64,000 bases of DNA from a virus, in IMG/VR virus record IMGVR_UViG_3300032242_000550, positions 62,001-126,000 of that record; one strand, given 5' to 3'. A program made the position numbers and the translations under genes. Positions 23,201 to 23,665 of the stretch are shown here, one piece after another (position 1 is the first letter of the stretch; each line of letters opens with the position of its first letter). Under the pieces are notes generated by a model that saw only the letters and a list, made by a program, of their open reading frames with translations, ran no database searches and had not been told where the DNA came from.

Positions 23201-23206
23201 TATAAT
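23201..23206 (+). promoter_or_regulatory. TATAAT box before the putative structured RNA
   Basis: TATAAT lies about 7 bases before the predicted first stem. The -35 region is weak (TTATTA at 17 bases). Its placement fits a start near 23212. Confidence 0.4.
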
Positions 23207-23210
23207 AAAA

Positions 23211-23665
23211 ATTCGTTGTCTTGGCTGCAAGACCTCCTTGAAGATGCTTGAAAGATAGCTGATGGATCTGGAGTAAGCATAGTTAGTGATAACTATGGAA
23301 TACCGAGAGGGCAATCGACAAAGCGAACCCTCAACAAGCTCATCCCTACTTTATCTTTGCGGGGTGAGAAGTGCGTTGCTGAAGAATTGTTTGAAAGACA
23401 ACAATAGCTTCACTACAGTCCCATAACTTTACAGAGCAACCGGTAGCGTTTAGTAGCAACAAATAGCTGATTAGACGGGGAAAAGATAACAAAGGATGAC
23501 GGGCATGGCAAATACCCTTAACCAACGGTAGTGCTGAATAGCACTACCATGGCTTCAAAGCGGCAATATGATAGATATATAATACATAGTAAAATACAAT
23601 ACTTAACCGTAAAAGATAAGAACGAACGTAGTGAGTTCTTAGATGAACGAAGTTCATCTTTACAT
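23211..23665 (+). ncRNA. Putative structured RNA of about 450 nt, no known family recognised
   Basis: No convincing gene covers this stretch. It contains a dense run of perfect or near-perfect hairpins: GTCTTG/CAAGAC (23218-23233); CATAGTTA/TAACTATG with a GTGA loop of GNRA type (23278-23297); GAGGG/CCCTC with an inner TCG/CGA (23307-23332); CTCATCCC/GGGGTGAG (23339-23368); GAAG-A-ATTGTT/AACAAT-AG-CTTC (23381-23411); GGTAGTGCT/AGCACTACC (23527-23548); AAGAAC/GTTCTT (23618-23640); and AGATGAAC/GTTCATCT with a GAA loop (23641-23659). The fourth stem needs a G-U pair that exists only on the plus strand, favouring plus. GTTGTCTT (23215-23222) can also pair with AAGACAAC (23395-23402). The region looks richer in G and C than its neighbours. 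It has none of the tmRNA, RNase P or group I or II intron hallmarks I know. The 3' end is uncertain. Confidence 0.5.

Follow-up and report, generated by a model that had tools for sequence, protein, structure and literature searches.

The intergenic stretch at positions 23201-23704 of a T4-like phage genome encodes RNA-level structure on its + strand, comprising a four-way junction, interlocked pseudoknots and covarying base pairs. Our main reading is that positions 23208-23659 specify a structured noncoding RNA that stands alone, acts in trans and represents a new class, a reading to which we assign a probability of about 0.75; action in trans is inferred, and no transcript data are available. 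The class statement alone, that this is a structured noncoding RNA of a new class, is held with somewhat more confidence. The window is the whole stretch of DNA analysed, namely positions 62,001-126,000 (64,000 nt) of the 155-kb virus record IMGVR_UViG_3300032242_000550. Coordinates refer to the window, and three-digit coordinates of its RNA are to be read as +23000.

By Pfam, the window belongs to a T4-like phage, with portal (PF07230), T4_baseplate and gp46/47-like genes, and its portal shares about 50% identity with the portals of jumbo phages such as Phosso, PA5oct, Atu_ph07 and XaC1. The RNA lies downstream of, and is co-directional with, a PD-(D/E)XK (PDDEXK_15) nuclease gene (22646-23200, + strand; PF24608, E 1.4e-24), and its convergent neighbour is a T4 gp26-like (T4_baseplate) gene (23929-24753, - strand; PF12322). 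All 99 distinct homologues have the slippery heptamer TTTTTTC just before the stop of the gp26-like gene, and the -1-frame extension of about 75 amino acids is conserved as protein; the minus-strand gene is thus likely prolonged by a -1 frameshift to about 23704. Because it probably reads on to that point, the true noncoding gap is 23201-23704. An earlier note, made from the sequence alone, had ended the region near 23665, which is amended accordingly; its description of 23201-23665 as lacking a convincing gene and containing many strong hairpins was upheld.

A 480-nt stretch folds better than 100 of 100 dinucleotide shuffles (z -2.65 for the + strand, -3.30 for the - strand). Since both strands fold better than their shuffles, folding energy alone cannot assign the strand. 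Covariation was assessed by a home-made, R-scape-like procedure (a G-test with APC) whose E-values are its own and not those of R-scape, against a null of alignments simulated along a FastTree phylogeny with per-site rates. Applied to 129 non-redundant sequences, this tree-aware test found 25 column pairs with E<=0.05, and 22 of these were canonical. As a second check, the named structure was scored in 54 core sequences aligned independently with MAFFT, where core pairs were standard in 95.8% of cells, as compared to 31-40% when partners were slid by 1-3 columns, and where 42 of 52 pairs changed on both sides, an outcome reached by 0 of 500 shuffles. Across all helices, G.U combinations outnumber A.C combinations by 867 to 115, and the + strand is therefore the RNA; the earlier note had pointed to one stem whose G-U pair works only on that strand. 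No conserved reading frame was found across the region in the homologues. One candidate, an ORF from a conserved ATG at 23549, was rejected on a median frame of 11 codons and a sequence that is not conserved. Base pairs persist even where sequence identity has fallen to about 50-60%, and strong selection on the RNA is very probable. It is the comparison of homologues that decides in favour of a real structured RNA.

Homologous loci were collected by scanning IMG/VR with the nuclease and gp46-like proteins, which yielded 160 loci; because IMG/VR contigs overlap in origin, locus counts do not equal counts of independent phages. By blastn and profile HMM, all loci whose intergenic region is complete contain the RNA, apart from the two outgroup loci L153 and L159. 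After removal of redundancy, 129 RNA homologues remained, with a mean pairwise identity of 66%; all have the nuclease gene on one side and the convergent gp26-like gene on the other, and the RNA is present in a single copy in each genome. The RNA begins shortly after the nuclease stop in the homologues, and the gap varies little in length, mostly measuring 720-790 nt as far as the gp26 stop, though the nuclease drops to 55-70% identity. In some phages an extra gene lies between the 3' hairpins of the RNA and the gp26 gene, GIY-YIG-like in L006, L007, L013 and L062 and encoding other proteins elsewhere, and the RNA remains intact. A scan of IMG/VR with the RNA motif only gave 117 loci, all of them between the nuclease and the gp26-like gene or ending within that stretch, and eight large contigs (186-364 kb) contained exactly one strong match apiece. 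A motif match in a Flavipsychrobacter MAG (L282) was rejected as unsupported by profile or model, and blastn of the region against GenBank phages returned chance matches only.

The main body of the RNA, about 360 nt (23208-23567, + strand), is defined by conservation in the 129 homologues, covariation and the strand signature. Its 5' and 3' limits are set by conservation and by a terminal helix, 211-217/562-567, which is paired in 76-93% of cases and is plausible, weakly supported and unproven. There follow the H1 hairpin (218-223/228-233; 219/232 E 0.17, 223/228 E 0.27), a CUCC/GGAG stem (234-237/270-273) that is invariant in 128-129 of 129 sequences and closes H2 (242-249/256-263; 248/257 covaries, E 0.0), and the 8-bp hairpin H3 (278-285/290-297; 282/293 covaries, E 0.0). 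An anti-Shine-Dalgarno role for the look-alike CUCCUU is unneeded, as CUCC pairs with the invariant GGAG in the consensus. The four-way junction (23301-23445), supported by covariation, is closed by helix UACCG/CGGUA (301-305/441-445) and holds H4 (307-311/328-332 and 315-317/324-326), H5 (334-336/370-372 and 339-346/361-368) and H6, GUUGC/GCAAC (375-380/435-440). Two pseudoknots interlock with it. In PK1, the H5 loop (351-356) pairs with 484-489 through six pairs that are 96-99% canonical (351/489 E 0.0, 353/487 E 0.03). In PK2, positions 419-422, inside the H6 loop, pair with 478-481 (419/481 E 0.03), and for each of the four pairs there are sequences in which both partners have changed. A short helix, 427-428/445-446, crosses H6; its 428/445 pair is 99% canonical with four pair types (E 0.2). 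The H8 hairpin (447-457/466-477) contains seven covarying pairs and is directly followed by the 3' strand of PK2 and then that of PK1. H9 (526-535/540-549) is nearly invariant. Strongly conserved, mostly unpaired blocks include UGCGUU (372-377, partly paired), ACUACAG (412-418) and UUACAG (429-434). Beyond an A+T-rich linker lie the 3' hairpins H11 (618-623/635-640 and 626-627/631-632; 626/632 covaries) and H12 (641-648/652-659; 647/653 and 646/654 covary), the latter with a C(GAA)G triloop and the only such hairpin in the window. H11/H12 (23618-23659), with a poor U-tract, likely form the 3' end of the RNA. Separately, columns 23503 and 23560 vary like-with-like (GG, UU, CC; E 0.0) and not complementarily, with 504/561 as a second matching column, which might reflect a non-canonical contact or two sites with a common partner.

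These results allow the structural details of the earlier note to be judged. Its 8- and 9-bp stems are present in the window, as CATAGTTA/TAACTATG (8 bp, with a GUGA loop), GGTAGTGCT/AGCACTACC (9 bp) and AGATGAAC/GTTCATCT (8 bp). The GNRA loop it reported is the GUGA of H3, which held for the window and is a GNRA loop in 74 of the 129 homologues. Two claims failed: the TATAAT box said to precede the first stem (23201-23206) is present in 2 of the 129 homologues, a lower frequency than shuffling gives, and the proposed long-range pairing of GTTGTCTT with AAGACAAC is an exact complement in 1 of 129. The long-range pairings that are supported are instead those of PK1, PK2 and the helix closing the junction. 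The note's central proposal, that this is one more class of large structured RNA from phages, is supported, and the findings that it had said would refute it were looked for: covariation is strong, no conserved protein frame exists and Rfam gives no match, all in its favour.

At the gathering threshold, no Rfam 15 family matches the window or 12 further diverse homologous loci. At E<=10 the region gave one match, at chance level, and none to GOLLD, ROOL or OLE. The absence of a match to tmRNA, RNase P RNA or group I or II introns, as the earlier note had it, was confirmed: neither ARAGORN nor Rfam recognised a tmRNA, and tRNA-like ends and a tag frame are lacking; no Rfam covariance match to RNase P RNA was obtained; and the RNA sits between two complete convergent genes with no interrupted gene, which does not meet the description of a group I or II intron. 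Nor does it meet that of a riboswitch or leader, since no + strand gene begins downstream before the convergent gene. In the open-access literature, including papers on phages CBB and MIJ3, we found no mention of this RNA or of the 121Q-type RNA described below; subscription papers and most preprints were outside the scope of this search. GOLLD and ROOL, which are likewise large, pseudoknotted, phage- and prophage-borne and of unknown function, are a precedent for big structured phage RNAs, so that the broad category is already known. The window RNA differs from them in giving no covariance-model match, and whereas they often lie near tRNA islands, no tRNA gene was found in the window. The class itself is without precedent in Rfam 15 or the open-access literature, and is very likely new by those two sources. 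To our knowledge, no described fold has the topology of the window RNA.

A probable relative exists in cultured 121Q/RaK2-like jumbo phages. At the equivalent locus, E. coli phage 121Q has an 837-nt unannotated gap, in which a TATAAT promoter and a perfect intrinsic terminator accompany structured sequence. By blastn, the 121Q-type RNA occurs at 164 places in 42 GenBank records, mostly at 4-5 per genome (four in 121Q itself), its carriers including 121Q, PBECO4, GAP32, CBB, BF, Munch, PHA46, XaC1 and RaK2. One copy adjoins the gp26-like gene in 121Q, GAP32, CBB, Munch and Hallingskeid; copies away from that locus are found, for example, in BF, XbC2 and RaK2. The RNA has its own sigma70-type promoter with a conserved TATAAT, and gives no Rfam match above chance level. 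Among 56 non-redundant copies, 30 of 32 pairs at E<=0.5 are canonical, and the structure is 97.1% paired as compared to 37-48% when slid. It comprises a hairpin (347-352/359-364) whose loop pairs with 474-480, a GUUGC/GCAAC helix (401-405/432-436) corresponding to H6, a helix (413-417/469-473) corresponding to PK2, a helix (420-424/440-444) that crosses GUUGC/GCAAC, and a hairpin (447-450/462-465) corresponding to H8, followed by the two 3' strands. Thus both families, independently derived and each supported by covariation, have six helices that agree in order and nesting: hairpin with paired loop, H6, PK2, crossing helix, H8, and then the 3' strands of PK2 and PK1. In some records (e.g. Hallingskeid) a short predicted CDS overlaps the 121Q-type RNA, and one of its unannotated places is L286 5300-5790 (- strand).

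The two RNAs further share ACAGRGCAACC at the equivalent structural position and, for one copy, the locus. Elsewhere the primary sequence is unrelated, the 5' half is different, an extra hairpin precedes H6 in the 121Q type, and the latter differs in having its own promoter and terminator and 4-5 copies per genome. At the H6 3' strand, the window consensus ACAGGGCAACCGG faces ACAGGGCAACCCG with 12 of 13 positions identical, for which our own arithmetic gives about 6e-7 at that single register. A match of this quality at any register was reached by 23 of 300 shuffles, and the agreement therefore loses its significance once the structural register is set aside. In neither direction did the covariance model of one family detect the other, so homology is inferred from topology and position. 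A topology descriptor applied to single sequences was unspecific (satisfied by 62 and 142 of 150 shuffles), and the argument from shared topology consequently rests on covariation. We lean towards common ancestry of the two RNAs, which remains unproven. Weak R2 matches in Atu_ph07, PA5oct and G004 (L411-L415) had low scores and were taken as chance; L411-L414 lack mutual similarity, and the L415 match overlaps open reading frames.

In our proposed mechanism, the RNA would act in the infected cell as a compact three-dimensional object and not as an antisense, leader or messenger RNA, docking on a partner via the invariant junction and loop residues UGCGUU, ACUACAG and UUACAGRGCAACCGGU. That it acts in trans as an object is inferred because an elaborate fold is kept at one locus. 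The partner would belong to the gene-expression machinery of the host, namely RNA polymerase, the ribosome or enzymes of RNA decay, and the RNA may bind it as a decoy or scaffold. This guess rests mainly on the host-type sigma70 promoters and the 4-5 copies of the 121Q-type RNAs; being an analogy with that branch, without evidence of a partner, it is rather more apt to be wrong than right. An early, abundant need for the RNA would fit such promoters and the several copies, which suggest that dosage may matter. RpoD-like promoters have been described for such phages (PMC5259590), and the 121Q-type promoter resembles them; from this likeness it is possible that the 121Q-type RNA is transcribed early by host RNA polymerase. 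In the window family, no conserved promoter was recognised, the candidate at 23201 being rejected, and no strong terminator was recognised; the T4-type late promoter (ATAAATA box), frequent before other genes, is absent before the RNA, which may be processed from the nuclease transcript. Because transcript evidence, a conserved promoter and a strong terminator are all lacking, expression by read-through as a 3' UTR is not excluded. The tests run point to no specific partner, and we rank host-machinery binding over an RNA-only assembly, a cis role in the 3' UTR and a ribozyme.

Elaborate conserved folds are rare among large RNAs, and the majority of RNAs that have them proved to be ribozymes, riboswitches or parts of complexes with unusual functions. 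Since its pairs are kept under divergence and it is nearly never missing in the phage group, the RNA is probably important for infection. Its function can be tested directly, because laboratory E. coli, Salmonella and Klebsiella support the growth of phages with a probable homologue.

A bolder reading than ours holds that the window and 121Q/RaK2-like RNAs are two branches of one ancient class, with a fixed locus in large T4-like phages and a novel interlocked pseudoknot core, a class that would serve the takeover of the host as an RNA machine, whether decoy, scaffold or catalyst; taken jointly, these propositions could as well prove false as true. A first alternative is a cis-acting 3' UTR element that ends the mRNA of the nuclease/gp46 operon and blocks exonucleases or terminates transcription from both convergent sides. 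In its favour, the RNA starts just after the nuclease stop, has no conserved promoter of its own and ends in two hairpins. However, with its interlocked pseudoknots and its unpaired invariant blocks, the 360-nt structure goes far beyond what a terminator or stabiliser requires, and the probable 121Q-like homologues have their own promoter, terminator and copies away from the locus; we consider this alternative unlikely. An RNA-only assembly, a cage or homo-oligomer formed during infection as by GOLLD and ROOL, would suit a large, pseudoknotted, phage-borne, highly conserved RNA without a dedicated neighbouring protein; GOLLD and ROOL do form such assemblies (PMC12286853), and the core contains the invariant palindrome ACCGGU. 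The palindrome is nevertheless explained by intramolecular helices (301-305/441-445 and H6), Rfam gives no match to GOLLD, ROOL or OLE, and at about 360 nt the RNA is about half the size of those RNAs (ROOL env-120 has 659 nt and many GOLLD RNAs exceed 800 nt; PMC12286853), so this too seems improbable. A ribozyme, or a descendant of a self-splicing group I intron, is suggested by the crossing helices: the group I core has the order P3-P7-P3'-P8-P7', which is equalled by H6-PK2-H6'-H8-PK2', H8 lying between the strands of PK2. Against it, no group I or II intron model of Rfam matches, P4-P6 and exons are absent, the position of P4-P6 is occupied by a variable hairpin in a stretch of 14-39 nt, and no gene is interrupted at the site, which lies between convergent genes; all this leaves a ribozyme or intron origin very unlikely. 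A DNA-level element (replication origin, packaging or recombination site, with cruciform hairpins) would fit a fixed position beside recombination genes and one copy per genome, but is all but ruled out by the excess of G.U over A.C on one strand, a signature of RNA and not DNA, and by the multi-copy version with promoter and terminator in 121Q-like phages.

Several observations lie outside the argument for a free-standing RNA. At the equivalent locus of PA5oct (L162 5900-4900, - strand), a perfect TTGACA-N17-TATAAT promoter with a TG extension is followed by about 900 nt with only small predicted ORFs, possibly a third large RNA. Sinorhizobium phage Phosso has at this locus a 1-kb noncoding, hairpin-rich gap beside a resolvase gene (L163 4986-6001), for which no relative was found among GenBank phages. 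Within the window, a small ORF between the gp47- and gp46-like genes (19903-20421, - strand) has no Pfam match and looks similar, on visual comparison, to the GIY-YIG-like ORFs that follow the RNA in L006, L007, L013 and L062; it is likely a homing endonuclease. The motif ATAAATA (often GATAAATA) precedes about one third of the window genes examined, mostly 26-39 nt before the start, and is probably the T4-type late promoter of this phage. Finally, the gp26-like gene lies directly upstream of a long tape-measure-like gene. Its TTTTTTC heptamer and extension recall the programmed -1 frameshifting of genes for tail assembly chaperones, which by analogy suggests that proteins of the T4 gp26-like type could have this chaperone role.
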